Source: a virus. Taken from it: a stretch of DNA of 64,000 nt. A model generated the notes under the pieces. That model saw only the letters and a program-made list of their open reading frames with translations, was not told where the DNA came from and searched no databases. Shown here piece by piece: positions 9,962 through 59,006 of this stretch (within the stretch, counting starts at the first letter, position 1; each line of letters begins with the position of its first letter). Location: positions 248,001 to 312,000 of IMG/VR virus record IMGVR_UViG_3300012931_000759. The stretch is one strand, 5' to 3'. The position numbers were made by a program, and so were the translations under genes.

Positions 9962-12028
9962 ATGGCGGCACCAGTCATACCGATTCTTTTTCCATTGCCT
10001 ACCGACGGTGGGAGGGACAAGACATATCCGGAACTCGTGCGCTCGATGTCGTGTACCTGCCCGGCCGGAGCGATCATCAAGCCGAGCATCGCGCCGATCC
10101 CCGGGTTCAACCTTGGCGACATCATTGCCGACCAGTCCAAGCTGCTGGCCGCCTTGGCGGCGGGCTACAGCATGCTTACGGTGGTAATGAAGCTGGTCTC
10201 CTGTATCATCGACGTGCTCTGCGCCCTGATAAATCCCTTTTCGACCATCGCAGCTGTCGTGCGCCTGTTCGGCTCCTGCCTGCCGGACTTCATCCTGCTT
10301 CTCCCACAGCTGGCGATCCCGGCCATCATCCTCTGTATGATCAAGATCATCCTGGCCATCATTACCTACATCGTCACCGTGATTATACCCTTGATCCAGG
10401 ACATCATCGCCAACGTCCAGGACCTCATCGATGCCATCTCCACGGGGAACCAGCACGCCATCCAGGCGGTGGCCTTCAAGATCGTGTCCATCCTAAAGGA
10501 GCTGTACAACGTCGTGGGCATCCTGGCTGCGCTCGACGCCGTCCTGGCCATGGTGAAGGCTCTCCTCAGTCTAGGCATCGGCATCCCGTGCGGAGGAGGC
10601 GGGGGATCCTGTAGCGGATGCGGGGAGGCCCAGTGCCCCTCCGTGTTCGACAACTTCACCCTTTCCGGCGCAGACGGCATGTTGACGGCCACGGTGGTCT
10701 ACAGCGGCAGCCTGCTGAGCTACTTCCTGACCTTCACGTCGGCCGCGCACAACGAAGATTTCCTGGCCCTGCGGCCCTTCTTTCCGACCGGCGTCGACTA
10801 CAGCACGATAACCGACAGCACGAAGGTGCCCTATCTGCTGAATTGTAATGGATATTACACAGTTACCTCCGTGGACGAGGATGGGGCCCTGTCGCTTTTC
10901 CCGCTGCCGCAGCAGCAGCACAATGACGGATACCTGTCGAGTGTGTACTGCTCCAGTGCCATTTCAACCCCGGTTGACCCCACCGGCCGGTACGCCAGGT
11001 TCGGCACACGGGCGGCCAAGCCGCAGTTCTCCTCTGGCGACGTTGGCGTGTATCTGGAGCTTCTGGATTCCGACAGTACGGGAGCCGCGAAGAACAACGG
11101 CACATTCAGGATCTCCTCGGTTTACGACGGCTACAATGTCGTGCTCGATCACCTCAGCGCAAGCGCGTGGGATGCGCAGGCCTTGTACAACCCGTCGTTC
11201 GGCTCGGGCTGGAAAGTCGTGTGGCGCAAGGTCTACGTGCCGTCCACGGTTGGCCCGAGGCCCTACACGCTGGTTATTAACCACGAGGAGCTGATACGGC
11301 GCAATGTCATAAGTGTGGGCTGCCATCCGGACGTTCGAACAGCCGTGAAGGGGGCGAAGAATCGCAGCCCGTACCTGGATGTGCCCATTCCGCCGCTGCC
11401 CGACATCGAAGGGCTGGCGGCTGCGGCCACCGCGTGCCTCACCGCGATAGCGCCGATCGACGTCGACTCCCAGTATGTCATCGACAACTATGGTAGCATC
11501 GCGCAGGCGGCGGTTACCGCAGGCGACTGCCTCAACAGCGCGCTTGGCACCCTCGCGTCTAGCATGGTTTCGTACGCTTCGGATATCTACCCAAGGGTAT
11601 TCAGTCTTGACAAGTCGCTCCTGTCAGCGGACCGCTCGATCCAGATCGCCGGGGGAGACATCGTCGTAAGCGTCATCCCTATTGACATCAACGGCAACCG
11701 GCTCGCCGACGACCTGCCTCCCGGAGTGGTGGAGGTAAAAGTCTTCACCACCTTTGGTACACTGTCGGTGGTAGAGGAGATCCTGGACGATTCAGGTGTG
11801 TCGACCGGTGAATTCAGGGCTACTCTGACCAGTCGGATCATCGGAACGGCCGAGGTCACAGCTACCGTGGCCGACCAGTATGTCAGCAATTTCGACACCA
11901 CATTGAATCCGCCGGACTATGTGCCGCGAACGCTCGAATTGTCGTTCGTCGACGCGCGCCCGGCCGACACCAAGCCGCAGGACACGATGGAACCCCTTGG
12001 AATCGCGGGCACGGGCGGGGTGAAGTAG
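9962..12028 (+). CDS. Tail-module protein with long hydrophobic helical region and Ig-like C-terminus
   Basis: A 688-residue protein. Residues about 50-205 hold several strongly hydrophobic helices (AAGYSMLTVVMKLVSCIIDV, then LAIPAIILCMIKIILAIITY) that would span membranes if exposed. A Gly/Cys-rich hinge follows near residues 209-222 (CGGGGGSCSGCG). The middle is beta-rich, and residues about 555-640 resemble a bacterial Ig-like/invasin-type domain (GVVEVKVFTTFGTLSVVEE). No enzyme motif was seen. It sits between the spike and wedge genes, so it is probably a virion component. The hydrophobic stretch could be buried in the tail tube or act at the host membrane; this cannot be decided here. 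Confidence 0.5.
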   Translation: MAAPVIPILFPLPTDGGRDKTYPELVRSMSCTCPAGAIIKPSIAPIPGFNLGDIIADQSKLLAALAAGYSMLTVVMKLVSCIIDVLCALINPFSTIAAVVRLFGSCLPDFILLLPQLAIPAIILCMIKIILAIITYIVTVIIPLIQDIIANVQDLIDAISTGNQHAIQAVAFKIVSILKELYNVVGILAALDAVLAMVKALLSLGIGIPCGGGGGSCSGCGEAQCPSVFDNFTLSGADGMLTATVVYSGSLLSYFLTFTSAAHNEDFLALRPFFPTGVDYSTITDSTKVPYLLNCNGYYTVTSVDEDGALSLFPLPQQQHNDGYLSSVYCSSAISTPVDPTGRYARFGTRAAKPQFSSGDVGVYLELLDSDSTGAAKNNGTFRISSVYDGYNVVLDHLSASAWDAQALYNPSFGSGWKVVWRKVYVPSTVGPRPYTLVINHEELIRRNVISVGCHPDVRTAVKGAKNRSPYLDVPIPPLPDIEGLAAAATACLTAIAPIDVDSQYVIDNYGSIAQAAVTAGDCLNSALGTLASSMVSYASDIYPRVFSLDKSLLSADRSIQIAGGDIVVSVIPIDINGNRLADDLPPGVVEVKVFTTFGTLSVVEEILDDSGVSTGEFRATLTSRIIGTAEVTATVADQYVSNFDTTLNPPDYVPRTLELSFVDARPADTKPQDTMEPLGIAGTGGVK

Positions 12029-12029
12029 A

Positions 12030-13643
12030 ATGGTCACATCCTCTTCTTCCGGCACCATTTTCAAACTGGATCTCGTGAAATTCGCGAGGGATGTTATGTC
12101 CGAGGTGGATAGTGTGCGATCGTACCTTCCGGATGTTGGAGGGGATTCACAGCAGGCCGACAACCGGCCCACCGAATCCAGGGTCAACGCCTTTTTTAGG
12201 CTGATCGGTTTGCCGATGATCGTGTCGATAGCACCCGAGAACGATAAGGATAAATCGACCACCAAAGCCTCGCAACAAACCTTGACACCAGGTTTTGCCA
12301 TGGGTGGCGAACCTCCCGGTGTCCTCGGAGACAGTAAGGACGCAAAGATGCCGGATCCGATCACCGGAAACGACACGGCCCTACAGACCCTTCTCCAGAG
12401 CCGGGAGAAAACACTTCTTGAGTTAGAGAGGGAGATAGGGACTGCTGACCGTGATCAGAGACGCGTGTGGGCCTTCTATACCCCGCTTAGTCTGTCGTTG
12501 GACGAGACAGATTTCGACGAGAAGGGTCTGCTGATGTTCAAGCGCATTTCTCCGTTCATTGTGTCCTATAGAAGGATATATCCGGCACAGAACGAGTTGT
12601 CGAAACCTTTCCTAGCGAATCCGGAAAGGGGAAGGACTCCGCTGGATTCTTCTCCGATCAGGCGTCCATTTATAGAGACGGTGATCAGAATACGCATTAG
12701 CGCGCTGGAGGGAGGTAACCAACAGCAGCAGGATTATCTGGCAAATGCCAGAGTGCGGATGCAGCAGCTGTCTTCGACAGCCGCCAATGCGCTGCCGGAG
12801 GAAGCCTCGGCATACGAATCATTCATCATAGACCAGATGTTGGGGTCGATCAACCAATTTGCCGACACCTGGGTTAATCTACAGCGGCGTCGCGAGTATA
12901 TAACCACGGACACAAGCATTATCCTGAAACCGAAAACATCGTCGGCAAAAGCGAATCCTTTCGGAAAACAAGGCAATGTTGCCACGACGTTGGAATCCAC
13001 CGGCAAATCGGATCGCGGCAAGCCGAATCTTATCCAGCGCCAGGCGATCCTGAACCGCAGTATTGCGGTGGACGAGGCCCTGATCAGCCTGCTGCCTACA
13101 CAAGACGCGACCAGCCTCACTGGGGAAGAGGTAAAGAACGTCATGCCGAACGCACTCACAAACCCGTTCGTGAGTATGCTTAGGCAGCCAATCGACTGGC
13201 AAAGGAAAAAGCTAGCCGAAGTGAGTGCGCAAATTGATGCCATAACGCAGCGGGCTGATAGACTGCGCCTGGAACTCGAGATGATGACAGGTGAGTTTAC
13301 TGGCCTCTCGTTACCAGATATCGTCTTTACCATACTGGCACTTTTCCTGATCAATAAGAATGATCTTATTGGTTTGCTGGATCAGGATACCAGGACGCAG
13401 ATGTCCTATGACCCTGTACTAAAAGCGGCATTAGAAGGATCGAGTCCAACTGCCACCATCACGGCGGCGAACAACCTGCGCAATAAAGTCAAGGAACTGT
13501 ATGCCGATCTGAACGAGGCGATCAAGCAACGCCTCGACAAAAGTAAGCGCACTTCGCGGAGCAGCTCGTCTCTGCCGAACGAAAAGAATTCAAGAACGCT
13601 CAACAACCAGGAAAACTACGAAGATTTCTTGAACGAGCAATAG
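12030..13643 (+). CDS. Baseplate-region protein of unknown function
   Basis: A 537-residue, mostly helical-looking and charged protein. Gln/Asn-rich segments (QQQQDYLANARVRMQQLSS) and a heptad-like stretch near residues 390-430 (KKLAEVSAQIDAITQRADRL) suggest a coiled coil. The tail is Ser/Arg-rich (KSKRTSRSSSSLPN). I do not recognise the family. It lies between the hydrophobic tail protein and the gp25-like wedge gene in the same tightly packed operon, so a structural or assembly role in the baseplate is the best inference. Codon use is slightly more AT-rich than in its neighbours. Confidence 0.45.
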   Translation: MVTSSSSGTIFKLDLVKFARDVMSEVDSVRSYLPDVGGDSQQADNRPTESRVNAFFRLIGLPMIVSIAPENDKDKSTTKASQQTLTPGFAMGGEPPGVLGDSKDAKMPDPITGNDTALQTLLQSREKTLLELEREIGTADRDQRRVWAFYTPLSLSLDETDFDEKGLLMFKRISPFIVSYRRIYPAQNELSKPFLANPERGRTPLDSSPIRRPFIETVIRIRISALEGGNQQQQDYLANARVRMQQLSSTAANALPEEASAYESFIIDQMLGSINQFADTWVNLQRRREYITTDTSIILKPKTSSAKANPFGKQGNVATTLESTGKSDRGKPNLIQRQAILNRSIAVDEALISLLPTQDATSLTGEEVKNVMPNALTNPFVSMLRQPIDWQRKKLAEVSAQIDAITQRADRLRLELEMMTGEFTGLSLPDIVFTILALFLINKNDLIGLLDQDTRTQMSYDPVLKAALEGSSPTATITAANNLRNKVKELYADLNEAIKQRLDKSKRTSRSSSSLPNEKNSRTLNNQENYEDFLNEQ

Positions 13644-13659
13644 GGAACGGGAGACTAGC

Positions 13660-14088
13660 ATGTCTTTTGACCTGAAGATAGTCGGCAATGACCTGGCCAT
13701 GAATCCGGACGGATCTATCCAGACCGTACGGGATAACGAGAAACTGAAACAGGACATCCTGAAAGCGATCCTGACGGCGCGTGGGAGTAACAGATTTCAT
13801 CAGTGGTATGGCAGCACTGTGTCCGAAAGGACCATAGGTCAGGTGCTGGAGGCCGGGCAACTCGATGCCGAAATCCAGATATCGATACAGGAGACACTTT
13901 CGAACCTGATGTCACTCCAAACGGCCCAGACCAGGGTCCAGTACGTCTCCCCAGGCGAGACGCTAGCTGGTCTTGTCGACGTGCGCGTCGCCAAGGATTC
14001 GACGGATCCACGACAGTGGTCTATAACAGTCATAGCCCTGACACGCCAACTGACGCCTGTAGAAGAGACCTTTGTGCTAAGAATATGA
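13660..14088 (+). CDS. gp25-like baseplate wedge protein
   Basis: A 142-residue protein, matching the usual length of the T4 gp25/P2 gpW family. Family marks are visible: DLKIVGNDLAMNPDGSIQTV at the start, then KLKQDILKAILTARGSNRF, a conserved glycine before HQWYGS, and a C-terminal beta segment ending in LTRQL. gp25-like proteins join the wedge around the hub and are related to TssE of type VI secretion. The next large gene is baseplate-J-like, the standard partner. A GGGAACGGGAG leader stands before the ATG. Confidence 0.85.
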   Translation: MSFDLKIVGNDLAMNPDGSIQTVRDNEKLKQDILKAILTARGSNRFHQWYGSTVSERTIGQVLEAGQLDAEIQISIQETLSNLMSLQTAQTRVQYVSPGETLAGLVDVRVAKDSTDPRQWSITVIALTRQLTPVEETFVLRI

Positions 14089-14124
14089 ATGGAATTTTCC
14101 GTGTAAACATATACAGAGAAGGAT

Positions 14125-14187
14125 ATGGCGAAAAAGAAAGAGTATCTGCTCAAGTTTGACGGGGGTGTGATTAATGGTCAGGTTTAA
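14125..14187 (+). CDS. Possible 20-residue micro-gene upstream of baseplate-J gene
   Basis: An ATG at 14125 preceded by AGAAGGA with 2-3 bases spacing opens a 20-residue lysine-rich frame (begins MAKKKEYLLKF, ends in VINGQV). The frame overlaps the start of the next gene at 14174 in another frame. It could be translated in its own right or serve to couple ribosomes to the J gene. It is very short, and no homology can be judged. Confidence 0.35.
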   Translation: MAKKKEYLLKFDGGVINGQV

Positions 14188-17100
14188 AAGCTTCAACGAG
14201 GTCGTGCTCTCCATGTTGGAGAGACTGCGACTCACACAGCCGCAATTGGACGACAAGCCGAACTCGGTGGCTAGGGACGTATTTGTCGACCCCCCGGCTT
14301 TCGAGATCGGCGAAGTTTACGAGGCCATGCGCGCCATTGCGCGCCTTCAGTCGCTAGCCAACCTGACCGGAAACGACCTGACCAATTTCGGTGCGAATTT
14401 TGGCGCTAGTCGTAAGACAGGCACAAAGGCAAGCGGGCAGGTCGTTTTCACGTTCCGTAAGATTGACACGAATCTGACCATACCGGTCGGCACCGTAGTG
14501 ACCACCCGCAATGGCTTGAGTTTCGTCACGATCTCCAGTACTACCGTGCGGGTATCCGACTCCAACGCACTCCGGGCAACCGCAACCAGGTTGCGTGATG
14601 AGCTGGACACAGCTGGGATCACCGACCAGTACGCCATCGAAACGAGTGTTCAGGCCCAGAGTATTGGCTCGTCCGGCAACATAGCCACCTACTCGATCGT
14701 TTCCCATTCTGCATCCGGCGTCAACAGCGTTACGAACGTTGTGTCATTTACAGGCGGAACGGACGTGGAGACAGACGCAGCCTTCCGGTCACGTATCCTG
14801 GCTACATTTGCCGGGGCCAACACCGGGACATCCCTTGGATACAGGAGTCTGATTCTGGCCTTGGCAGATGCCATCGACGCGCTGGTAGTCGAGCCGGGCG
14901 ATCCCCTCATGGTCAGGGACGGGACAACCACAACGACCGACAGCAGTGGAAACACCATCGTGGCGCAGCCAGGAACGGGCGGAAAAGTCGACATCTACGT
15001 ACTGGGGGAGAACCTCCAGGCCGCCACGGACAGCTTTATTTATAAGGACAAGAGCGGCAAAAACGATCCTACCAGCCCCAACAACGACCATGTGCTCGGG
15101 CAATCGTCACTAACTCCGAACACCGCCCTTTCTCTCAACAGCAGGCGGCTGGGCGTGCTCTCCGAGGGCGAGGCGATCCCAACGCAACCTATCTCCTCGA
15201 TTACATCGGTCATCGGCAGCTCCTCCGGGCCCAATTTTGTCGAGCAGTACACCGACAGCTCGGATCAACTTGTGGGGAACTATAAGCTTGTCGGCGACAC
15301 CGGCGTGGCCCAAGGAAGCCCGTTTGGCCTCGATAAAATAGTGTGGACCTCGGATCGCATTAACATGTTGGCTGAGAGTCGCACAAAAGGCGCTTTCAAC
15401 AGCGTCGATGGCCTAGCATACACTGATGTGCTCGGCATATCGGGGATTACGCAGGATGTACGTGTGACAAACGAGAACTCGTCCGTGTCGAGCGACCGCT
15501 TCTATGTCACGGTAAAACACAAGCCTGTCCGTACCGTGAGTCGTATTTTCAACCTCACCACAGGCGAGCGGTACACGATATCCGACCAGAACCCGGACGG
15601 GCAAAGCAGCGCACTGAATGAGACGGGACGCATCAAGATCTCGGGACGAACCCTGCCAACCGCAAGCGACACACTCCAGGTAGACTATACGTGGGTGATG
15701 TCTTTTGCGCCAACTGTCGAGTTCGACACGCTGGATCCTAAGGATCCGACCAACAACGCTCAGGACTCGATCGACTGGGGCTTCCCGAACTACATCAGGG
15801 ACGAGTTGTCGTCGGCCAATCTCGACGCTTACGGCAAGCTGACGGTTGCCACGGCCTACCCGGTTGGGCGCCTGCTTGCGGTGAGCACTTTCCATCAGGA
15901 GACCCTGACGGTCGGGGGTACCTCCTCCAGGAAAACGATCACGACAATCAACACGGTTCTGAACATACATAGTATCAAGGACACTTCGAAAAGCGGGGCA
16001 GAAGTGTACAATACCCTCACAGCCGATGGCACCTTCTCCAACAGACTGATTGCGCTGCCAAGCGACTCGCTGGCTGCCCTCGGAGATCAAGTTGTTGTCG
16101 TGTATAGCACCACGGATCTGATGGACTCGTACCAGTCGGCTTCGGCCGTCGGAAAAACCATCACACTGTTCCCGTCCACATTGGTTGCCTCCGGCACCGC
16201 CGTCATGGTAGACTATGCGACCAGCCTGCTGAACATCCTACCACAGACGAACTTCACCTCGTTGCCAGTGGCTGGGGACGGCTACAACTCCTTCACGGGC
16301 ATTGATGGATACCAGCCTATGCTCGACACCTTCGCGGGAAGCGTGGTTGTCGACAACAAGCGCAGGACCCCGACGCACCTGAAGGTGACGGCCGCCGCCA
16401 TACCGACGCAGGGTACGTTAGAGTTCATCGGCATCACTATGAACAAGATCACCGGGATCTTTACGACTACAGCTGCCTCCACCGGCAGCGCCAACATTGT
16501 CGACCTAGCTCCCCTGATCAGGACCGCCGAGGGTCTTGGGCGTACGGCAACGATCCCCTCGAACATCGCAGTAGCCAGGCTTCTTTCACTGGAGGCGGTC
16601 TCGCTGGATATTACAGGGAATGTCAAATCGGTGAATACCACGTACGATCTCACAAACTACGCGTTGAAGACATCGCGTTGGGACCTGGCATACGCTACCC
16701 AGAACACCTCGCTCGGCAACGCGTCAATCCAATTGGCAGCCGTTGCCGCGAACACCAGCAGCCCGATCACAACCGGCAAACACTTGCGCGCCACTTTCTA
16801 CTACGCGAAGGGCAACGACTCCGAACGAATGTTCTTCTCCAAGAATGGCTCACAGATCACGGACAAGGTTTTCGCAAAGGTGGCGTCCATCGGACGCGTG
16901 TCCGGTTTCACGAACTCCGCCGGAGCGGTCAGCGGGCGGTTTACCGTCGACACCGCGACACAGCCGGAGCAGAACGTCGCCTACGCGGTCGACTACAGCT
17001 ACACGGCCCCGAAGAACAACGAGCGCATCACGGTGAATTACGAATACAATAAGCTCATCGGGGATGCTACTTTTGCCGTCGAGGAAGGGAGGCCGATCAC

Positions 17101-17428
17101 GGCCGATGTCTTGGTAAAAGTAGCCGAGGAAGTCAAGATCGACGTAACCGCAGAAATCATCGTGCTCCCGTCGTACGCAACCTCGTCCGACACGGTCAAA
17201 CAGGACGTGGCCGACAATATCTCGTCCAGTCTAAACGCCACGGCATTGAATACGACGCTGGATGTGTCCGATATTGTAGCCAACGCGTACAACGTAGCTG
17301 GCCTGGACAAGATCACAATCACGCGGTTCAACCAACAGGGACAATCCGGTACCGTCACAACTGTGGTTGCCGGGAAGAACCAATACCTGGCCGCCGGTAC
17401 GGTGACCATAACAGTCAAGACGCGCTGA
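14174..17428 (+). CDS. Baseplate J-like protein
   Basis: A 1084-residue protein, longer than P2 gpJ (about 300). Residues 1-75 show the J-type start (PNSVARDVFVDPPAFEIGEVY, then LANLTGNDLTNFGANFGASR). Next comes the strand-rich segment TIPVGTVVTTRNGLSF and a TDAAFRSRILATF segment with GTSLGYRSLILA, which is the core of the Baseplate_J family. A large beta-rich insertion fills residues about 300-940. The C-terminus returns to family style (VKQDVADNISSSLN, then LDVSDIVANAYNVAGLD). The protein would form the wedge ring with the gp25-like protein. The start is supported by GGGGG upstream and by the N-terminal match. Confidence 0.8.
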   Translation: MVRFKSFNEVVLSMLERLRLTQPQLDDKPNSVARDVFVDPPAFEIGEVYEAMRAIARLQSLANLTGNDLTNFGANFGASRKTGTKASGQVVFTFRKIDTNLTIPVGTVVTTRNGLSFVTISSTTVRVSDSNALRATATRLRDELDTAGITDQYAIETSVQAQSIGSSGNIATYSIVSHSASGVNSVTNVVSFTGGTDVETDAAFRSRILATFAGANTGTSLGYRSLILALADAIDALVVEPGDPLMVRDGTTTTTDSSGNTIVAQPGTGGKVDIYVLGENLQAATDSFIYKDKSGKNDPTSPNNDHVLGQSSLTPNTALSLNSRRLGVLSEGEAIPTQPISSITSVIGSSSGPNFVEQYTDSSDQLVGNYKLVGDTGVAQGSPFGLDKIVWTSDRINMLAESRTKGAFNSVDGLAYTDVLGISGITQDVRVTNENSSVSSDRFYVTVKHKPVRTVSRIFNLTTGERYTISDQNPDGQSSALNETGRIKISGRTLPTASDTLQVDYTWVMSFAPTVEFDTLDPKDPTNNAQDSIDWGFPNYIRDELSSANLDAYGKLTVATAYPVGRLLAVSTFHQETLTVGGTSSRKTITTINTVLNIHSIKDTSKSGAEVYNTLTADGTFSNRLIALPSDSLAALGDQVVVVYSTTDLMDSYQSASAVGKTITLFPSTLVASGTAVMVDYATSLLNILPQTNFTSLPVAGDGYNSFTGIDGYQPMLDTFAGSVVVDNKRRTPTHLKVTAAAIPTQGTLEFIGITMNKITGIFTTTAASTGSANIVDLAPLIRTAEGLGRTATIPSNIAVARLLSLEAVSLDITGNVKSVNTTYDLTNYALKTSRWDLAYATQNTSLGNASIQLAAVAANTSSPITTGKHLRATFYYAKGNDSERMFFSKNGSQITDKVFAKVASIGRVSGFTNSAGAVSGRFTVDTATQPEQNVAYAVDYSYTAPKNNERITVNYEYNKLIGDATFAVEEGRPITADVLVKVAEEVKIDVTAEIIVLPSYATSSDTVKQDVADNISSSLNATALNTTLDVSDIVANAYNVAGLDKITITRFNQQGQSGTVTTVVAGKNQYLAAGTVTITVKTR

Positions 17429-17438
17429 GGACCATAAG

Positions 17439-20400
17439 ATGACAAACCTGCGAGCCAAACAGCTGATGGTGAGGAGCAGCACGACAATCGAGGTGACCTT
17501 CACGGCCAGCCTCGATCCTAACATCGCTCCGTCGAACATCACCATCGATGGGGTTGGTGGCACACCGTCCGATCTCGCGGTAAAGTCGGTCTCCGTGTCC
17601 GGAGCGAAGCTGACCGTTACGGTCAAGCCGATGATCTCCGGGGCTCTGTACGAGATGGTCCTGGCCTCGACGTCCACCCAGTTCTTTGTTGGCGCGCACG
17701 GGGAAAGGCTTGTCGAGGACGGCGCCACGAACCATCTGTTCTTCACAGGCATCGAGGAAGAGAGCGATGTCTTCCAGGCACTCAGGGATTCGCTGCCGCC
17801 CATCTACGATCCCAAGGGTGGCTCCCTGCTGCGCGACCTGATCATGCCGATCGCGCGGGAGATCGAGGCGGCACAGCACGCAGCGAACGAGATTGGAGCC
17901 GCCAACTACATCTCCGTAGAGGTGACGGACGAAGGGATCACAAGGGGTTCCGGGCCATACGACCGGTTCGCAAACGAAGGTGTCTTCAAAATCCTCAGGG
18001 TGGGCGCAACTGCTACCAGCGTCGGCACCAGCAAAACAATTACGTATACTTCGTTCCCGTCTGATCCTATTAGCCTCCAGCAAGATGTCGTGGCGGAAGA
18101 GACAGTATCGAACGCGTCCGGAAGTTTAAACAGTTTCGATGGTTTGTTGATCTCTCTGTCTAATGGACCTGTCATCAATGTGTCCTCTATCGTTCTGGTG
18201 CGAGGAACCTCACAGTATGTCTACGATATTACACTGTTCCGCTACGGCCTGGAGGAAAGTAAATACGACAGCGCGAATGCCTACTCAGCTTTCGACATAA
18301 AGAATAATCAGGTGCGCTTAAGCACTGCGGCTGTCGGCCCGAGTTTTCCTCTTCCCCAAGGAAACGATATCATCAAGATCGGGTACACATACAAGAGACT
18401 TGGCCGCATTCCGAGTGTGTCCTCTGTGTCTATCACGACAACCGTCAACGTGGTCAGGGAAAGTGTTCCTGCAGTTGCGACATCCTTTTTTCTTGGACAC
18501 GCTCCAATTGTGAACAGGACAGGGGATACTGTCACTACGGGCGGTATTCAATGGATCAACCCGGCCGCCAATTTCGATCCCACCCTGAAGCACCCGGCAT
18601 TCGTGACCGAAATACCTTTCAGCGAGTCCAGCCTACCCTCTAAGGCGGGAGAGTTTGCCGTCAACTACTCGACCGGGCAGGTGATTGTGTTTGGGGTGGA
18701 TGGTTCAGGAACCGACGGAACAACCGTTGTGCCGCCAGTCGCGACCTACTGGTTCAAGCGAACTTTCCAAGACGGCCTGGATTATAACCTCTTTAGCGAC
18801 CTGTGGGAAATAGCGGCTGTGCCAGGACGCGACCTGGAAGGATCCCCGGCTACAATTTCCTTCACCTATGAAGAAACCTTTGCCGAGGGTACCGATTTCC
18901 TGTTCGCCTCGCATGTCGAGCAGATCGACGAGCGCGTCAATAACAGGCTGATCGGGGATTTTGGGCTGACAACTGAGTACGGTCCTGTGAACGAGGTGTT
19001 CCGTATTTTCAACGAGACGACCGGCGAGTTGTATCGCGTGTCCCGAATCTCCGGAAACCAAGTGTTTTTCCAGGCTACAACTCCCCCGAGACTGGTCCAG
19101 ATGGCGCGGGAGGCGGCATCATTCAACGAGCATATCCAGGCGCAGATCGTGGTTTCCGAGGAAGTGGCGATTCCCTCGAAGTCCTTCGTGGCCTTTAGGG
19201 TCGAATTACAGGATGCGAACATCGCCACAGCGACTGCCGATTATATAGGTGCCAGCTTTAACTCTTCGCTGCTGTTTTCCGACACCTCCACATTCGCGCG
19301 GGAAATGTACTTCGACCCAGAGGACACCGAGGGCAACAACCTCCAACGCCTACAACAGGTCGGGGACTACATGGTTAACTACGCCAACGGGGTCGCGCAT
19401 GTAGCAGTACTTTCCGGCAGCAGCACCGACATCGGCGACGCCTCGTACCGTTTCGGCGAGATCCTGACGGCGAACAAGCACATCACCGAAGTGTCGAACC
19501 TGTACCGCAGCGCGAGCGCCAAAGCGGAGAACGTCAAAATCTTCACAATCGGTGCCATCGTGGACGAGACGGTCGAGATCGTGGACCTGGAGCAGGTCGG
19601 CGAATCCTCCGTGGACGGCAACGCCATCCAGGTCTCCAGCGGAACTGTCGAGGTTTCGCAGGACGCCATGAGGGTGCGGCACATTTTCCAGGTGACCGAC
19701 CTGCGAACCGCCTCCGCGCCCGTGGACTTCGTGGCGGGGGCCGTGATCTCCTCGTCGCAACCCACTACGATCACGCTCGACCCAGACGGCGTGCCGGTGA
19801 CCGACTCCGGAGCAAACGGCGTCGGCCTCGAAGTCCAGACGGACGGTTTCAGGAAATACATAGAAGTCTCAAGACTTTCCAACATTGTGTCCGGTCCAAC
19901 GCAGCTTGCGACGCTGGTCGATAAGGTGGCCGACCCGGATTTCTTGGCCAGGGAATACTGGGTCATCGACATGGCGACCGGCCAGAACTACTTCGCGTTG
20001 GGGAACGACAGCTACATCGATGCCTCGGCCAACAGGATCTACCTGCCGAGCAACGTGCCTGACAGCGCCATCGGCACCTTGGTCGAGGCGCAGTACAGAG
20101 CGGCACTTCTGGACGGGGCTGCGGTCTTGGTCGACTATACCCCCGGCGACATCTTCATAGACTACACATATGTGGCCGACGAGATCCTGGTTAGCTACGA
20201 GTATGGCGACAACGTGCTGGATTGGAGCGTGTCCGATAACCTGTCGGCTGGACAGACGTACTATGTCAGCTACCGCTACGGCGCGCTGCGTGACGCGTTG
20301 CGTGACAATTTTGGCGTGCTCACTGGAATAGAAGAGCTGGCCACGGCCCCGCTTAGCCTAGAGCGCGAGTTGTACCGCGCTGGTCTTGCTGGGTCGCTCC

Positions 20401-23400
20401 AGTCCTTTTTGAAGGGGCCTACGATCCCCGCCATCCAAGCGTTGGTGAAAGCATTCACGGCCATCAACCCAACTATTGAGGAGTCCGTGTTTTTCGAATG
20501 GCTTGTCGGCCGCGACTACCTCAACCTACTGCCCATGACTCTCACTACGGCGCCGGACTCCTCCGAGGATGCGATGTTTGCCCCTGGCAAGTTCGGGTAT
20601 GGACTGTTACTCGACAGCGCGGGCCAGACGGCCAAGTTACCAGCCACCTCCAACATGCGTTTCGCCGACGGTACGTGGGAATGCCAGCTGACGCCCCTTT
20701 GGATGGGGGTTGACAATGACGCCGCGCTTACTTTGGATCTTCTGTTCGACGGCTATAGGATGCCGTCCAAGGTGTTCATTGGCGCGGGCGGATACAGCCC
20801 GGACGCCATCCCGTTCACCATCGACCGCTCGGACAGCAGGGTGCTGGGTCGGCCGCTAGCGCTACACAGCGAGAACGGATATTTTATCTGGTACGACAGC
20901 ACGGCTAAGAAATGGCGGCTGCGGACTAGGGGGCCGATCGACGAGCAACGGCTTTTTGAGGGTCAAATCACGTCCTCGGGTCAGTTTGGAGAGGTAACGG
21001 TAGCTTCCTCGGCGGACGGATACCTACCAGCCGACGGCTACGGTCTGGACGAGACCAACGACTATGTGAGATCCACCGACGACCTGCTGGAATTCTCGTT
21101 CTCGGTGGACGGGTACGATCTACTGAACCTCCCCCTGGACGCCTATGGCGACGGCTATTACGCGGCTTTTGACGGTGTGGATTTCCAATCGGACAATGTG
21201 CGCTACCTGTTCGACACCGGCGTCGAGTCGGCCAGGAACAGGATGTCGCTCTACAAGGATGGCCGTGGTTTTCTCAGATACCGTGTCTACGACTCGAATG
21301 GCCGCATGAAGATGCTTAGCGCGAACATCCGCGACTGGGAAGCCGGAGCAACACATCCTGTGGCGGTCGCCTGGAAACTCGGTACCGTGGAGCAGCGGGA
21401 CGAGATGCACCTGTTCGTGGATGGCCGCGAGGTGCCGAACACCTACAGATTCACCGGATACTTGCCGGTTCCCGCGACAGGCGGCGTGAAGTACATGGAC
21501 TCGGTTGGCGAGACTCTTGTATCCGGCGTCCCGGTCCCCACCGTGGGCGGCAGCGACATGATCACGGTTATCGGCTCGGATACCGTTTACTCCGCCAGCG
21601 CGACCTTCGGATCGGACGGAGTCGGGATCGGGGATCCCTTCGTTATCCTGGACTCCACGACGGATGGCGCCAACACCCGAATGTCCCCCTACGTTTTCGT
21701 CGCGGAGATTGTCGACGAAAACAGGCTGCGTCTGGAGATAGGTCCGGCCGGATCTGGTATCCCGTACCTCATGATATCCAGCTTGACCGGTGTCAGGTAT
21801 TCCATCAACCGGTTAACGCTCGCCACGGTGGCCGATCCCCTCATAGAGAAAGTCCGCGTCTATACAGTTTCACCAACCGGCGAGGCGATGGAACTCAGAT
21901 CCCCGAACGCGCTCAATCCCGACTACTCGTTCGATCGCGACGGATACCAGGACTATATCCTGCTTGACAATGGCCTTCCCATCGGTTGGGATATCGTGCT
22001 GTACTCCTACGGATTAACCCAGCAGAGAAGCAGGCAGTTCGCATATGTGTGGCCGTACAGGAGGACAAACCTCCTCAAGACTATCATGCCGCAGCCGACG
22101 GCCGTGTCTAAGATTAGGATTACGAACATCATCAGCAGGCGTGCAAACATCGAGGCGGGGGCCTTCGCGCTCGTGGCCACCATCGTCGGCGGCCACCCGG
22201 TCCAGATGCTTGCCTCCAACCTGCCGTTCTGCCAGCCCAGCGAGTCCATACACGGGCGTCGATTGGCTGCCACGATCATGGGCGACAACTTCGACTTCGG
22301 TGGCTTCAACCAGGTGACCATCACCGGCGACACTTTCGATGGGTACGGGGGCGAGACCCTCGCTTTTACGAATGTCGGCACGCTCGAGACAACCAGGTAT
22401 TTCCTATCAATCACGAGCGTCTCGGCCGCCTTTACACCGCTCGACCTGTCCAGGTCGGCTGGGACGATAGAGATCCGCGAGGCCCTGCCGCTCACGCAGC
22501 AAGAGAACGGCGGTGACTACGCCCAGGTGCGGCTGTCGACCCTGGATCAGTACGGTTTGGACGGCACCCTGTCGGTGGGCGCAAACACCTTCAGTGACGG
22601 ATATGCCAGATTCGGGGTCGAGGATATCAACCGGTTGATCTACATCGAGGGCGCTCCTCCGTCGTGGCCTTCGCACGTGTTCACGATCACCGACGTACAA
22701 CTCGACCCGTCCGGAACAGTCAAGGACTCCGACACGGTGGTCGTATCTGGGCAGATGCCACCGGTCGGCACATATACAGGTCTGCGCTGGTCGGAACGGA
22801 ATCTGTCCTTCGCCGACTCCGGATTCGCCAACGGCCTGATCACGCTGGAGATCGTCGGCAGCGGAGGCTTACCTTTCCTGCTGAGTAACTGCTGGTACCT
22901 GGTGGATTTCCCGAGCTATGCAATCATTCCGCTGGAAACTGTTCCGGAGACATTGTATGTGGGCTCCGACATGTTTGGGGCAAACCAGGCAGGAGCTGTT
23001 ATCGACGAAATGCACAGTCTGGCCGAAATGCTGACCGACACCGGTGCCGGTGAGGTGTTGCCAAGCTCCGGTAGGAGTGTCACCTCCGAGGCGGAAAGTG
23101 TGCGCGAACTGACGCCGATCACACAGTCGTTGGCATTGTTCCACTTCAACGGATGCCTGAAAAACCGGGCGAGCTTCTACTCCAGCTTCTCGCGTTCGTT
23201 CTTCCAGAGTTCCAACAGTGTCAACAGCCTGTTCGGGCAGTCGGGTGTCTTCAATGGCCAAGGCGCGCTCTCGATGGACAATGCCGGAATATTCTTCAAT
23301 AATGCCGGAACCATAGAGTTCTGGGTGAGCCCGATACTCGACACGTACAACGACCCGACCCGCAGGTACTATATCGACTTGAGCGCAGAGCAAACAGTAG

Positions 23401-24347
23401 TCGGAGACCCCATCTCGGCCCTCGTGGTTAGGATGCCGGTCAGGGCGCGATCGGTCGTTTCGGTAACGCTGCCGGATAGCGACACGAACTTCTTCACAGG
23501 AGGTTCACTGGGCGCGGATGGTGTGACTGTCAGGCTAGGGCAGAGGATTCCGGTACAGAGCCAGCCCACGGTCACATATATCCCGATCACCAGCCAAGGG
23601 GATCGCTTCAGCGTCTTTAAGGATGACAACGGGATGCTGGTCCTGTCCGTTACGGCCTCCGGAGTCGACTACCAGATCTCTGCGCCTGTCTACTGGAAAA
23701 AGAACACCTGGCATCGCGTGTGGATCGGATGGAGCCTGAACAACCCAGACAACCAGGACCGCCTGGTGCTTATGGTGGATGGGGCCGAGCGTGGCGTCAT
23801 CAGGTACGGAACCGGCCTCAGATACGGCCTAGCCGGACGGTACGGTATGCCGACCGTCTGGGGACAAGCTCGCGCGGGAACGATTGCCTCGAGGAACATC
23901 CTGGCGGACATCAACATGACGGACTTCTTCAGCACCGTACAGATCGGTAACGACTTCTCCGGCCAGTCGCCCGCCATGGCTAGGATGGACAACCTGCGGT
24001 TCTCTAGCCAGATGAGGTCGATCCTCTACCTAGGCGGACGCGGGCCCGGCCAACTGATAGGGAACGACCTCCTGTACACAAGCAACGTGAACACGGCCCA
24101 GCCCGTGATCGAGGACGCATTGACTACGTTGCTTCTGGATTTCGACACGGATAGCAGCCTGGTCGAGTACCTTATTGCGGTACACGACAGCGCTGCAGGC
24201 ATTTTCGATTTCTTCGTTACCGTCATCGACTCATTCAAACTGATCCCGAACCAGGACGTCAGGGACCTGATTAAGAAGCTGATCAACAGGTTGAAGCCGG
24301 CGCACACCAGAGCGTTTGTGGACTTCGGGGACACGGAAGATTGTTAA
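17439..24347 (+). CDS. Giant baseplate/tail-fibre protein with two LamG-like domains
   Basis: A 2302-residue protein, the longest in the window. Residues 1-95 form an Ig-like strand pattern. Residues 107-150 (LRDSLPPIYDPKGGSLLRDL, then IAREIEAAQHAANEI) resemble the tail-I type helical start that joins wedges. Long beta-rich repeats follow. Two concanavalin/LamG-like jelly rolls can be seen at about 1060-1340 (WECQLTPLWMGVD, EMHLFVDGREVPN) and 1940-2200 (TIEFWVSPILDTYND, WHRVWIGWSLNN, RLVLMVDGAERG). DGY motifs recur many times. LamG-like domains often bind sugars, so a receptor-contacting or glycan-binding role is inferred. It follows the J gene in the same operon. Confidence 0.7.
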   Translation: MTNLRAKQLMVRSSTTIEVTFTASLDPNIAPSNITIDGVGGTPSDLAVKSVSVSGAKLTVTVKPMISGALYEMVLASTSTQFFVGAHGERLVEDGATNHLFFTGIEEESDVFQALRDSLPPIYDPKGGSLLRDLIMPIAREIEAAQHAANEIGAANYISVEVTDEGITRGSGPYDRFANEGVFKILRVGATATSVGTSKTITYTSFPSDPISLQQDVVAEETVSNASGSLNSFDGLLISLSNGPVINVSSIVLVRGTSQYVYDITLFRYGLEESKYDSANAYSAFDIKNNQVRLSTAAVGPSFPLPQGNDIIKIGYTYKRLGRIPSVSSVSITTTVNVVRESVPAVATSFFLGHAPIVNRTGDTVTTGGIQWINPAANFDPTLKHPAFVTEIPFSESSLPSKAGEFAVNYSTGQVIVFGVDGSGTDGTTVVPPVATYWFKRTFQDGLDYNLFSDLWEIAAVPGRDLEGSPATISFTYEETFAEGTDFLFASHVEQIDERVNNRLIGDFGLTTEYGPVNEVFRIFNETTGELYRVSRISGNQVFFQATTPPRLVQMAREAASFNEHIQAQIVVSEEVAIPSKSFVAFRVELQDANIATATADYIGASFNSSLLFSDTSTFAREMYFDPEDTEGNNLQRLQQVGDYMVNYANGVAHVAVLSGSSTDIGDASYRFGEILTANKHITEVSNLYRSASAKAENVKIFTIGAIVDETVEIVDLEQVGESSVDGNAIQVSSGTVEVSQDAMRVRHIFQVTDLRTASAPVDFVAGAVISSSQPTTITLDPDGVPVTDSGANGVGLEVQTDGFRKYIEVSRLSNIVSGPTQLATLVDKVADPDFLAREYWVIDMATGQNYFALGNDSYIDASANRIYLPSNVPDSAIGTLVEAQYRAALLDGAAVLVDYTPGDIFIDYTYVADEILVSYEYGDNVLDWSVSDNLSAGQTYYVSYRYGALRDALRDNFGVLTGIEELATAPLSLERELYRAGLAGSLQSFLKGPTIPAIQALVKAFTAINPTIEESVFFEWLVGRDYLNLLPMTLTTAPDSSEDAMFAPGKFGYGLLLDSAGQTAKLPATSNMRFADGTWECQLTPLWMGVDNDAALTLDLLFDGYRMPSKVFIGAGGYSPDAIPFTIDRSDSRVLGRPLALHSENGYFIWYDSTAKKWRLRTRGPIDEQRLFEGQITSSGQFGEVTVASSADGYLPADGYGLDETNDYVRSTDDLLEFSFSVDGYDLLNLPLDAYGDGYYAAFDGVDFQSDNVRYLFDTGVESARNRMSLYKDGRGFLRYRVYDSNGRMKMLSANIRDWEAGATHPVAVAWKLGTVEQRDEMHLFVDGREVPNTYRFTGYLPVPATGGVKYMDSVGETLVSGVPVPTVGGSDMITVIGSDTVYSASATFGSDGVGIGDPFVILDSTTDGANTRMSPYVFVAEIVDENRLRLEIGPAGSGIPYLMISSLTGVRYSINRLTLATVADPLIEKVRVYTVSPTGEAMELRSPNALNPDYSFDRDGYQDYILLDNGLPIGWDIVLYSYGLTQQRSRQFAYVWPYRRTNLLKTIMPQPTAVSKIRITNIISRRANIEAGAFALVATIVGGHPVQMLASNLPFCQPSESIHGRRLAATIMGDNFDFGGFNQVTITGDTFDGYGGETLAFTNVGTLETTRYFLSITSVSAAFTPLDLSRSAGTIEIREALPLTQQENGGDYAQVRLSTLDQYGLDGTLSVGANTFSDGYARFGVEDINRLIYIEGAPPSWPSHVFTITDVQLDPSGTVKDSDTVVVSGQMPPVGTYTGLRWSERNLSFADSGFANGLITLEIVGSGGLPFLLSNCWYLVDFPSYAIIPLETVPETLYVGSDMFGANQAGAVIDEMHSLAEMLTDTGAGEVLPSSGRSVTSEAESVRELTPITQSLALFHFNGCLKNRASFYSSFSRSFFQSSNSVNSLFGQSGVFNGQGALSMDNAGIFFNNAGTIEFWVSPILDTYNDPTRRYYIDLSAEQTVVGDPISALVVRMPVRARSVVSVTLPDSDTNFFTGGSLGADGVTVRLGQRIPVQSQPTVTYIPITSQGDRFSVFKDDNGMLVLSVTASGVDYQISAPVYWKKNTWHRVWIGWSLNNPDNQDRLVLMVDGAERGVIRYGTGLRYGLAGRYGMPTVWGQARAGTIASRNILADINMTDFFSTVQIGNDFSGQSPAMARMDNLRFSSQMRSILYLGGRGPGQLIGNDLLYTSNVNTAQPVIEDALTTLLLDFDTDSSLVEYLIAVHDSAAGIFDFFVTVIDSFKLIPNQDVRDLIKKLINRLKPAHTRAFVDFGDTEDC

Positions 24348-24745
24348 TGGAACTTATAGAACTATTGGCGTGTATGTTTTACATGGGCTCGAAACCAATG
24401 ATGTGGCGATACGCTCTCCAGAGAAACAGACACGACTGTCATACACACGAAATATCCCGATGTCTCGCCACTTTAAAAGTGTTTTGTGGGCAACGGCACA
24501 ATTGGTCGACAATGTAGTTTTTCTGTACCAATTGTTTTACGAACCGAGAAGTTGAGTGTTTTTAAAGATCTGAATCATCTTTTTTGATATTTTTTTCGCA
24601 ACCTGTGCGACGCAGAAACCCAAATGGCAAAGATGTTTCTAAAATCTATTTGCCTAGGGGCTTCCTTGACTAAGATGTTAAAATCCATCGGACTGCCTCC
24701 TTTGAAGTGTCTGGCTTACCGGTGGAAAATCGATGGAGGGCTGTC
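24348..24745 (+). other. 398-base intergenic stretch, AT-rich, no firm gene
   Basis: An ATG at 24347, overlapping the upstream stop, opens a 56-residue frame to 24517. It is Cys/His/Met-rich, lacks a ribosome-binding site and looks non-coding. A second, equally weak frame runs to 24555. The rest is AT-rich with a candidate terminator at 24564-24585 and no tRNA or convincing promoter. The ribosome-binding site of the next gene (GGAGGG) is at the right end. Confidence 0.5.
24564..24585 (+). terminator. Weak candidate intrinsic terminator
   Basis: AAAGAT (24564-24569) pairs with ATCTTT (24577-24582) across a 7-base loop and is followed by more T bases, with another T-run at 24590-24596. The stem is short and AT-only, so strength is doubtful. 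The site fits the end of the long baseplate operon. Confidence 0.3.
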
Positions 24746-27574
24746 ATGAGTACAACACGTCTGCCTGTGGATTTAAAAAGGGTGGCATATTACGACGGGC
24801 AGCAGCTCACGCGCGATGACCTGCGCGACGAGCAGAACCGGCACGTCGGCATCGACGCGGCCACGGTCGCTAACTTCCTCGGAAGCGGGGTAGTGAGCGA
24901 CTCGGCAATTCCGCAGGTCCTTCTGGACACGGCGGAACTGAATCCCCAGCAGCAGGCGTTGCTCGACGCTTACTCGTTCGATGGGCAGAATGTCTACATC
25001 GGAACCGGACTGAAGCAGGTGTCGGATCCCGTGAATGGCGTGCTGCTAGCAGTCACGCTAACTGGCGTGGATCTCGTCGGCTCGATGGCGACCAAGGTAG
25101 CCATTATTGGCGAAACTTTCGGCGGGGGCCTTGTACACGACGAGCTTGTGTTCGAGGAGAATGGCACACAAGTTACGCGGGGGCGGTACAAAGAGGTGTT
25201 TGGCATCCTCCTCAATGACTTCGCAGGCAATCTATTCGGAAGTCTCTCCCCGGCAACCATCTATGTCGGCGGATATCAACTCGTGGGACGCTGTGTCGTC
25301 AGAGAGGCGGAGGCCTTGGAGGTCTCCATGGACACCCTGATAGCTTCGCAAACGGCTCAACCCAACCAGTTCTTCGGGAATTTCAAGCTCGGCAGCCCGT
25401 CATACACGCTGACTTCGTTATTCCAGGAGATCATTGGACCCTCGCATTCGCCCTCCGACCTTGGCATTAGTATTGCCTCGGTCGCCCAGCGGCAGATCGA
25501 CCCGGACGACGTGACAACCAGGATAGGGCAGAAGTTCCTGGCCACAGGGACGAACATCCAAAAGATCTCGATACTCGCGTCAGTGCTAAGGGACGAAAGC
25601 ACCCTGCCGGGAAACGAATACAATTGGTCGGGCCAGATCGTACTCAATCTCCTGGCGCTCCAGACGACAGTCGATTGTCCGGTGAAGCCGGTGCCCGATA
25701 ACCTCGAGGATTTCGATCCGGATCCCACAGTGGTAGCCCAGCTGTCGCTGGATGCGACGGATCTCGTGCGGCAAGGTGTCGTGCTGGATGGTTACGCTAG
25801 AAAAATCGATTTCGTGCTGACAGAGACCTCGATCGCCGATCCGCTGATTTCCCCCATTGAGCAGGGGCGTCACTATGTGTTCACCATCGGGCGCGCAGGC
25901 AATGCCAACGTCGGCACCCTGCTGTTCGAGGAAGCGGTCCACTCCACCCTGAATGGCTACATGGTAATCTACGACGGTACCCAATGGGTCAACATCTATG
26001 AGAGCGACATGTGGTTCGAGGTCTACGGCGATTATGTGAAGATCGCCGACGGCATCGCCTATCAGGAGGGCGTCGGTGTGGAGATCCCACGCTTGGCAGA
26101 GGATGCCAGCGGCGTCGAGTCCCCGAACTACGTGGGCCTGGTTCCATTCGCAACCACTGCCAAGGACGCCAAGAACTTCGTCCTCATGGAGGTGGAGACA
26201 ACCTACAGCGACACGCAGCAGGATCCACGAACGGGCAATCCGGTGTCCTCCAGGCTAGCGCCCTCCGCAGCCGTATCCATGGTTAAAGAGACGGATTTCC
26301 AGACGCAGCTTGCGGCGGACTTGGTGCCGCTCGCGCTGGCGCGTGCCACGGACGAGAACCCGAGGGGAAATCCCGTGTCCATATTGGGCACAACTACATT
26401 GGCTGGTGCTGTGTATGGCAACCACATACATGTTATCGCGCCGAACGCCGATCTGCTGTCGAACAACATCGTTGGCTCCATGTTGCTGCCGGACTCTGCC
26501 GAGAACAAGGAGTACCGCATTGTCTCTGTGTTGCTTAGCATGGACGCCTACGGCGATGTGGACGGTGACGGCGAGATCACATTCGCCGACCTTGCCATCG
26601 TGAACACTTGGCTACCCGACGGCTACGACCTCTCGGACCCCGTAGACCAGCAAAAGCTGATCGACGGCAAAGTCCCCCTGGACCGCGTCCTGCGGGCCGA
26701 CGTAAACGGGGACGGGAAAGTGGATATCACTGACGCGACGCTCATCCAGGCCTTCCTGGACAAGAGCATTTCGACGTTCCCGGCCGGTTCCTCTTTCCAG
26801 CGTATACTTATCAGGGTGGAGAACAAGTTGAATCCGCTGGCGGCCCAGGCCGACATGGCGGCGGACAACCCAGATTTCACCACTGTTCCGTTCGTCTCGA
26901 TTCCGTGGACGGTTGGCTACTTTAGGACATGGCTGCCTGACCGGATTGACCTGTGTGACATGCGTCGGTTGGTGCCGACCACGTTCACCGCTTTGCCAGA
27001 TGGCGATACCTGCTACGGTGGCCGGAACGACTTCTTTATTCCCGGTAACCAGCTATTGGACGGCTATGTTATGGACAAGTTCGGCGACCCGCATCGGCTC
27101 GACTTCGAGGTTGCCCATCTGTCCCTGAGGATCCCTGTGACCGACACGCTGGGTAACCCTACAATCCTCGACGGCTATGTGGGATTCCTACTATTCGACT
27201 CCTTCGTGGCCGAATCCTCGCTCGGCAAAACTTCGGCAGGTTTCCAGGCCATGAAGTACAGTGACCGGAGTTTCGTCCAGATCGGCGATTTCGGGGCCGG
27301 GCGTGTGCGCATCACAGCCTCACTACAGTCGCTAGCGAACGCCTGGCCGTCCCCGTTTGGTGGGAATGTGGACGACCTGGTCGGAATGTACTACGACCCA
27401 ACCACTTCGCTCCTGGTGCTACAAACCAGGAACCTGCTGAACGACGGCTATGGCAACCTACTGCCGTCCCAATGTATGCGGATCCTGGTAACTGTCTACC
27501 TGAAGAAGGCAGGATTCGCGAATACGACGCAAGATGTGACGGATGGCCAGATGCGCACCCTGTTGGGTATTTGA
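24746..27574 (+). CDS. Tail/fibre protein with internal dockerin-type calcium-binding domain
   Basis: A 942-residue protein. The ATG at 24746 is chosen because GGAGGG stands 5 bases upstream; an in-frame GTG at 24707 lacks a site. The N-terminus (LPVDLKRVAYYDGQQLTRDD) is typical of a phage/microbial surface protein family. Residues about 600-673 carry two dockerin-style EF-hand loops, GDVDGDGEITFADLAIVN and ADVNGDGKVDITDATLIQAF, with Asp/Asn at the calcium positions and a following helix, separated by about 35 residues. The C-terminal 240 residues are beta-rich and could be a partner or cohesin-like fold, but I cannot show that. It lies downstream of the LamG giant, so it is likely a fibre or appendage part. 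Confidence 0.6.
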   Translation: MSTTRLPVDLKRVAYYDGQQLTRDDLRDEQNRHVGIDAATVANFLGSGVVSDSAIPQVLLDTAELNPQQQALLDAYSFDGQNVYIGTGLKQVSDPVNGVLLAVTLTGVDLVGSMATKVAIIGETFGGGLVHDELVFEENGTQVTRGRYKEVFGILLNDFAGNLFGSLSPATIYVGGYQLVGRCVVREAEALEVSMDTLIASQTAQPNQFFGNFKLGSPSYTLTSLFQEIIGPSHSPSDLGISIASVAQRQIDPDDVTTRIGQKFLATGTNIQKISILASVLRDESTLPGNEYNWSGQIVLNLLALQTTVDCPVKPVPDNLEDFDPDPTVVAQLSLDATDLVRQGVVLDGYARKIDFVLTETSIADPLISPIEQGRHYVFTIGRAGNANVGTLLFEEAVHSTLNGYMVIYDGTQWVNIYESDMWFEVYGDYVKIADGIAYQEGVGVEIPRLAEDASGVESPNYVGLVPFATTAKDAKNFVLMEVETTYSDTQQDPRTGNPVSSRLAPSAAVSMVKETDFQTQLAADLVPLALARATDENPRGNPVSILGTTTLAGAVYGNHIHVIAPNADLLSNNIVGSMLLPDSAENKEYRIVSVLLSMDAYGDVDGDGEITFADLAIVNTWLPDGYDLSDPVDQQKLIDGKVPLDRVLRADVNGDGKVDITDATLIQAFLDKSISTFPAGSSFQRILIRVENKLNPLAAQADMAADNPDFTTVPFVSIPWTVGYFRTWLPDRIDLCDMRRLVPTTFTALPDGDTCYGGRNDFFIPGNQLLDGYVMDKFGDPHRLDFEVAHLSLRIPVTDTLGNPTILDGYVGFLLFDSFVAESSLGKTSAGFQAMKYSDRSFVQIGDFGAGRVRITASLQSLANAWPSPFGGNVDDLVGMYYDPTTSLLVLQTRNLLNDGYGNLLPSQCMRILVTVYLKKAGFANTTQDVTDGQMRTLLGI

Positions 27575-27590
27575 GATGGAGGAATGAGTC

Positions 27591-28388
27591 ATGGCAACCG
27601 CTAACATCATCATCAACCAGACGGGCAGGCCGCCGGGCCTGCCAGACCAAAGCCGCGACGATCTGGCACTCAGCGTCCCGGTGATCCTGACCAACGAGAA
27701 CAACTCAGGAGTAGTGGCCTGGAACTGGCGGCTGCTATCCAAGCCAGCCGGGTCGGGCACCGGCCTGGACACGCCAACTCTGTCATCCTGCCAATTTACG
27801 CCCGACCTGGCGGGGTCGTACCTGGTTCAGCTGGTCGTGAACGGTCAGACTCGGGCGACGGCGATCGCCGCCGTGAAGACGACATTCCTCGGACTGCGCA
27901 TTCCGGCGAAGGGGGAGACCACCGAGCTGGGCGGCTGGGAGGCCGCCTTCCAAGAGTTGTTCCGACAACTGGAGGACGGCATCCAGTCGGGCGGTGGTAC
28001 CAGTGACCGGACGTTGCTGTTTTCGGACGACACTCAGTTCACTGAGGTGGGCGACACGTTCATCACGAAGAAAACCTTCAGGGTTGTGCGCGACCCGGAC
28101 AAACCACCAACACAGTGGCGGATTCTGGTGTCACTGTGGGGATCGTCGTCGTACGGCCTTGTTGAGTGTCGAGTGAACGCGATCGGAGAAGGTGGTACTG
28201 ACACGGTTACGCTACCTTCCGTCTTCGGAAATGCCGAGATCGTGGTGGCTGCAAACCTCACCATTAGTAATGCCAACGAACCTGTAGGGTCGATCGTGAC
28301 AATCGAGATCCAGTTAAGGCTGGTCTCAGGGGGCGGGGCGGCCAGCCTCCAGTACACCGACGTGTTTGCTCTCTACGCGGCGGCCTGA
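27591..28388 (+). CDS. PKD/Ig-like fibre or decoration protein
   Basis: A 265-residue protein. Residues 25-90 have the PKD/Ig layout (VAWNWRLLSKPAGSGTGL, then CQFTPDLAGSYLVQLVV). The C-terminal half (about 135-265) is beta-rich, with a repeated hydrophobic strand pattern such as a receptor-binding or trimerising tip would have. No catalytic motif is visible. It starts with a GGAGGAATGAGTC leader. It is the last tail-module gene before the glycan cassette and is therefore a natural candidate acceptor of the sugars made downstream; that link is inference only. Confidence 0.5.
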   Translation: MATANIIINQTGRPPGLPDQSRDDLALSVPVILTNENNSGVVAWNWRLLSKPAGSGTGLDTPTLSSCQFTPDLAGSYLVQLVVNGQTRATAIAAVKTTFLGLRIPAKGETTELGGWEAAFQELFRQLEDGIQSGGGTSDRTLLFSDDTQFTEVGDTFITKKTFRVVRDPDKPPTQWRILVSLWGSSSYGLVECRVNAIGEGGTDTVTLPSVFGNAEIVVAANLTISNANEPVGSIVTIEIQLRLVSGGGAASLQYTDVFALYAAA

Positions 28389-58623: not shown

Positions 58624-58911
58624 ATGCCGATATATGACTACATTTGCGAGGAATGCGGCCACGTCTTCGAGGAGTTTGCGCGTATCACGGATCCTCCGAT
58701 TAATAAATGTCCGGCCTGCGGCCTAACGGGACGCGTATGTCGCCTAATCTCGAGCGGCACAGTTGGCACAGTAGAGATGAACGGTCGGGAGTACTTCAAT
58801 CGTGTCTTAGAACCGGAGGCCAAGCGGATCGCCGAGAAGATTAAGCACGGGGATGATGCCGCAATCGCTGATGTTTTTGGCGAGGGCCCTCCTGCAAAAA
58901 AAGTCGGTTGA
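58624..58911 (+). CDS. FmdB-type zinc-ribbon protein
   Basis: 95 residues. The N-terminus MPIYDYICEECGHVFEEFA with CPACG downstream is the FmdB/CxxC-CxxC putative regulatory family. The C-terminal half is a charged helix. Cellular relatives are of unclear role. It is the last gene of the replication operon; its TGA lies inside the promoter of the next unit. Confidence 0.75.
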   Translation: MPIYDYICEECGHVFEEFARITDPPINKCPACGLTGRVCRLISSGTVGTVEMNGREYFNRVLEPEAKRIAEKIKHGDDAAIADVFGEGPPAKKVG

Positions 58912-58936: not shown

Positions 58937-59006
58937 CTCTTTAAACAGGGGAAGGATTGCGTCCCGCTCCGGCCAAAGGCCGGGAAAAACCGCGAAAGGA
59001 TGGAGC

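Follow-up and report, generated by a model that had tools for sequence, protein, structure and literature searches.

A predicted dockerin-fold module inserted in a tail protein of a large clade of huge phages

Huge phages of a large clade share a tail protein with an internal module that, judged from sequence and predicted fold, is a dockerin. In our best reading, this module is an ancient and obligatory insertion domain of the tail, probably stapled by calcium, which would play a structural or a docking role within the virion. The gene, the predicted fold of the module, the conservation of its ligand positions and its presence in every relative found were all established computationally, starting from a window of 64,000 nucleotides (bases 248001-312000 of a 340,392-base virus record), to which the positions given below refer unless the whole record is named.

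Sequence and predicted fold of the module

The gene is an open reading frame for 942 amino acids (24746-27574; this gene and all its parts described here lie on the forward strand), which starts with the ATG at 24746, and an SD-like GGAGG (24735-24739) is located 6 nt 5' of this start. Residues 600-681 of the protein (26543-26788), i.e. the region from DAYGD to FPAG, are well supported by sequence and predicted fold as belonging to the dockerin domain family. Residues 602-671 match the Pfam profile Dockerin_1 (PF00404) with an E-value of 1.9e-8 and 34.8 bits, the curated cut-off being 22.9 bits, and this match covers positions 1-56 of the 57 profile positions. Individually, 12 of 16 homologues match Dockerin_1 at E<=0.01, and when the 16 homologous modules were combined into a profile and compared with PDB sequences, dockerins ranked first (top E-value 2.3e-13).

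The initial annotation had placed a dockerin-type domain, with two loops of the DxNxDG kind and the helices belonging to them, at residues about 600-673, and in all these respects it proved correct. The strict loop pattern occurs twice in the protein, at residues 604 and 652, i.e. in a putative calcium loop 1 (residues 604-615, 26555-26590, DVDGDGEITFAD) and a putative calcium loop 2 (residues 652-663, 26699-26734, DVNGDGKVDITD). Both loops are canonical, with ligand-type residues at positions 1, 3, 5, 9 and 12. The segment between the two hands (residues 616-651, 26591-26698) comprises most of helix 1 and two further helices, so that the loops are spaced by 48 residues with extra helices in between; the length of this segment differs across the family, with a spacing of 46-64 residues in relatives or of about 147 residues in the split forms described below.

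Structure prediction, which had been proposed as a check, gave a confident model of the module alone (105 residues, pLDDT 95.6, pTM 0.84), in which strand, loop, helix, helix, helix, loop, helix and strand follow each other, i.e. each loop is followed by a helix. The 22 best PDB fold matches of this model are all dockerins (probability 0.99-1.00, TM by target up to 0.86). The model of the full-length protein is of poor quality as a whole (mean pLDDT 64, pTM 0.39), with the module inside scoring about 87-94, and it also retrieves dockerins at a probability of 1.00. One predicted beta strand enters the module (residues 592-601, 26519-26548) and another leaves it (residues 683-691, 26792-26818). 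Together, these flanking strands, the module model and its top dockerin matches indicate a dockerin fold that interrupts a beta domain between two of its strands.

A compositional feature of the same protein may be recorded here. The tripeptide DGY, found in the dockerin protein for example at residues 348, 625, 772, 809 and 900, is strongly over-represented in structural proteins of the whole record, including those encoded at 9962-27574 of the window, with a 20-fold excess in the dockerin-protein family and a 10-fold excess in the 2300-aa neighbours. The coding strand of the whole record contains 130 occurrences of GAYGGNTAY and the other strand 8, the reversed-pattern control yielding 17/19. 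Nine related huge-phage records show a strong strand excess of this pattern, phage G shows a mild one, and phiKZ and T4 show none. Since all DGY codon combinations are used, this is a signal at the protein level.

Tail locus, relatives and the split form

The neighbourhood of the gene is that of a tail locus. A baseplate J-like or baseplate wedge gene (14174-17428; PF04865, E 3.6e-28; phrog_6 baseplate wedge, E 9.5e-46) lies about 7 kb upstream, and the gene immediately upstream (17439-24347), which is conserved beside the dockerin gene, encodes a tail protein of 2302 aa with homologues of 48-56% identity in the related loci L002/L003. Immediately downstream follows a fibre-like gene for 265-266 aa with weak PKD matches (27591-28388), all three genes being on the forward strand like the dockerin gene. 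This baseplate-J context and the conserved tail gene order back the earlier assignment to a phage tail protein and argue for a baseplate-proximal position of the 942-aa protein, which would be a component of the virion. The fibre-like protein shares an N-terminal Ig/PKD-like domain with two other fibre-like proteins of the same phage; in coordinates of the whole record, the three copies are found at 275591-275992 (266 aa, the gene at window position 27591), 116697-117092 (1388 aa) and 113253-113645 (563 aa). This suggests that they are alternative fibres sharing one site of attachment.

Several other features of these loci deserve mention in their own right. At one related locus (L005:12845-15142), the fibre-like neighbour of the dockerin gene contains an array of short Cys repeats of the CTGDCTGTC type, which extends over several hundred residues and takes the place of the usual variable middle of the fibre protein. 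Right after the tail genes, the window carries a block of glycosyltransferase and sugar genes (28366-49655), which includes a 756-aa protein with two glycosyltransferase matches, a 1149-aa glycosyltransferase protein, a DegT-type aminotransferase and an epimerase; in most of the relatives inspected, the dockerin gene is likewise followed by glycosyltransferase genes. A GIY-YIG homing-type nuclease with HTH domains is encoded at 45273-46481, and in some relatives homing-nuclease-like ORFs are located between the dockerin gene and the glycosyltransferase gene (L013:13051; L071:9356). Further downstream (58908-62144), a protein of 1078 aa matches PrkA AAA and kinase domains (E 4e-101 and 6e-68), which is unusual for a phage.

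In successive searches of viral contigs, the number of relatives rose from 2 to 6 and then to 16, each of them carrying the module; these 16 were retrieved with full-length patterns outside of the module and carry it in 16/16 cases. A search with the module profile returned 41 loci, at which the module is always part of the same protein and a large ORF is located upstream (41/41; roughly 1,700-2,100 aa or more within the fetched flank). The unbiased approach, i.e. a search with the region after the module only, brought up 80 viral-contig relatives, and in each of them the same ORF includes the module. The profile is specific, with no match outside the family among the 1737 ORFs of these loci (L006, the sole exception listed, belongs to the family) and none in a reversed set. 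Records of the near clade contain one Dockerin_1 region each, or none over the threshold where the module has diverged. The homologues thus amount to about 80 distinct viral-contig proteins, which adjoin the 2300-aa tail gene in those checked and reside on contigs of up to 459 kb; so many related proteins with the same gene order where checked rule out contamination or misbinning. Since all these relatives keep the module at the same place, it is probably a constant component of the tail, held together by calcium.

Beyond these contigs, neither the dockerin protein nor its 2302-aa neighbour had a relative in annotated or named phage records at the sensitivity used, and the same sensitivity revealed no relative in GTDB genomes. 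PHROGs contained no match to the dockerin protein, no dockerin was found in T4, phiKZ or phage G, and a comparison of the module with named phages gave weak matches in unannotated faecal contigs only.

In one clade, the two hands have been moved apart: loops 1 and 2 are about 147 residues distant from each other, with an insertion of about 100 residues, rich in beta-like sequence, in the inter-hand segment (L114, L118, L119, L121, L122, L125, L133, L136 and others). In a maximum-likelihood tree, obtained in a quick run and with an arbitrary root, the proteins with separated hands make up one supported group of 20 that lies within the unsplit ones, such that a single insertion event suffices. 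Of this group, 19 members had been labelled as split, and the remaining one (L113), in which the hands also lie apart, had been called single from a weak spurious match.

Candidate roles of the module in the virion

An obvious question is what has been under selection in this module. Among 80 non-redundant proteins, positions 1 and 12 of loop 1 are Asp in 80/80, the same two positions of loop 2 are Asp with hardly any exception (position 12 in 79/79), and all five ligand-type positions (1, 3, 5, 9 and 12) are kept in 75/80 first and 73/79 second loops. No variation is seen among the first 41 non-redundant relatives at Asp600, Tyr602, Gly603, Phe678 and Gly681. In the same 41 relatives, entropies of 2.7-3.4 bits, among the highest in the module, are found at positions 10 and 11 of each loop, which we take to correspond to the Ser-Thr cohesin-contact pair of the C. 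thermocellum complex. (2ccl, one of the PDB fold matches, is the S45A/T46A mutant of the C. thermocellum complex.) In dockerins with a dual binding mode, which is not universal, the residues that contact the cohesin are symmetric between the halves; here, the half-to-half agreement (n=41) at positions 10/11 is 7 versus 4.1 and 4 versus 3.9 after shuffling, and at position 17 it is 10 versus 5.6. With ligands kept and positions 10/11 variable, selection appears to act on the calcium fold and not visibly on a cohesin-facing code. A fast co-evolving partner, however, could yield the same variable pattern, and cellulosomal cohesin-dockerin pairs are largely species-specific (PMC12484212).

We lean, if not strongly, towards the module being a calcium-stapled knob, i.e. 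a fixed structural or assembly element in the virion rather than a cohesin plug for a scaffold of the host. Each loop would most likely bind one Ca2+, and these ions would fix both loop-helix hands and the intervening helices as a rigid knob at the tail protein surface. This knob, we think, braces or docks neighbouring tail parts by contacting another tail component. That one clade tolerates an insert of about 100 aa between the hands, as a structural element might, speaks for this structural reading; a degenerate loop 1 in L002 and L006 counts against a calcium-held knob.

Clearly less probable, though the main rival, is that the module acts as a working dockerin inside the virion, with calcium-dependent docking of a cohesin-like beta sandwich on another tail protein. 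Such a role would agree with the dockerin fold being kept in all relatives, and the best candidate partner would be the N-terminal Ig/PKD-like domain of the fibre-like proteins: it is shared by the product of the next gene and two others (266, 563 and 1388 aa), like alternative fibres on one socket, and this fibre family is encoded directly downstream of the dockerin gene in most near relatives. Yet in the more distant clades, which retain the dockerin, this fibre domain went undetected, and the cohesin-facing positions lack conservation. Nor did a cohesin-like partner turn up where the initial annotation had suggested looking for it, i.e. in other tail proteins of this phage, including residues 700-942 of the same protein: the cohesin profile PF00963 had no match in 8 phage records, in a search insensitive to distant beta sandwiches, and residues 693-942, when used as a profile against the PDB, gave weak antibody matches only and no cohesin. 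In a bolder version, which we regard as rather speculative, huge phages would run a cohesin-dockerin-like system of their own in the virion, with the dockerin knob as a calcium-dependent socket for interchangeable fibres. If so, this socket would receive the shared N-terminal domain of the fibres as an unrecognised cohesin-like domain, fibre attachment would be calcium-switched, and the clades with a split dockerin would have made the socket a larger platform.

The least likely of these roles is a grip on a scaffold of the host surface, one of the options originally envisaged: the module would bind a scaffold or S-layer that bears cohesins and so serve in adsorption. In our view, this is quite improbable when set against the structural knob or docking within the virion. 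Dockerins do bind cohesins in known systems, and the presumed location in the tail would be compatible with reaching the host. The grip fits poorly, however, with the variable cohesin-facing positions and with retention of the module in every relative: there is one dockerin region per phage record, always at the same site, and no relative lacks it, while phages tend to swap or lose their receptor-binding parts. Moreover, cohesin-bearing surfaces are rare among bacteria.

Finally, a reading without any dockerin fold or ancestry, in which the module would be a plain EF-hand pair or two Asp-rich loops paired by chance, is scarcely credible: weak EF-hand family matches exist (E 0.004), but they remain far below the Dockerin_1 score, EF-hand proteins stand below nearly all dockerins in the fold ranking (calmodulin- and polcalcin-type probability <=0.13), the strict loop pattern occurred twice in 0 and once in 106 of 20,000 shuffled versions of the protein, and the module is conserved clade-wide. 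The loops do lie between strands of a beta domain, the setting in which plain EF-hand loops had been considered as the alternative, but they do so with a predicted dockerin fold.

Comparison with known dockerins and phage proteins

A named counterpart is A0A6J5RS54 (UniProt/BFVD), a 'Dockerin domain-containing protein' of an uncultured Caudovirales phage, which is a full-length relative (23% identity, E 2.9e-64) and by fold and sequence the same kind of phage protein; its dockerin label is automatic, and it differs in length, with 1332 aa versus 942 aa. DUF4815 phage proteins (PF16075) show a weak fold likeness to the whole model (A0A6J7WU75, probability 0.98), but membership in this family was rejected, with no PF16075 sequence match in six records of the clade. 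A literature search on dockerins in phage virions produced no report, including on A0A6J5RS54. Two apparent precedents were discarded: the remark on the dockerin-like gene 40 of VvAW1 is unrelated and concerns a location near an attachment site (PMC3558961), and that on phage HSE2 refers to a carbohydrate-binding structure and not to a dockerin fold (PMC5967307).

As far as checked, the insertion of a dockerin in a single beta domain of what would be a virion protein is new, and so is the split form. Dockerins are known as the plugs of secreted bacterial enzymes, with which cellulose-degrading machines are built. Here, huge phages of a widespread group have a dockerin as an internal and never-lost part of a tail protein whose gene provides a ready marker for them, and the module offers a cheap test of cohesin-dockerin-like, calcium-dependent docking in phage tails.

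Among bacterial proteins, the best PDB profile match (E 2.3e-13) is the second dockerin of Clo1313_0689 from Clostridium thermocellum (8x39/8x3a), which aligns over the whole phage module including its FPAG-like tail, but which is part of a protease and has a shorter inter-hand segment. The function of this double dockerin has been called ambiguous, and dockerins in general are usually C-terminal and only occasionally internal (PMC12484212). With cellulosomal type I dockerins (PF00404; 4uyp, 4fl4, 2vn5), the phage module shares the order of a YGDVNGDG-type loop, helix, linker helix, second DVNGDG loop and helix, as well as the FPAG-like end, at a fold probability of about 1.0 and a TM by target of up to 0.86. 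In contrast to these dockerins, with their cohesin partners absent from the 8 phage records searched with PF00963, the phage module shows no conservation of cohesin-facing residues, has a longer and variable inter-hand segment and sits within one beta domain of a tail protein.
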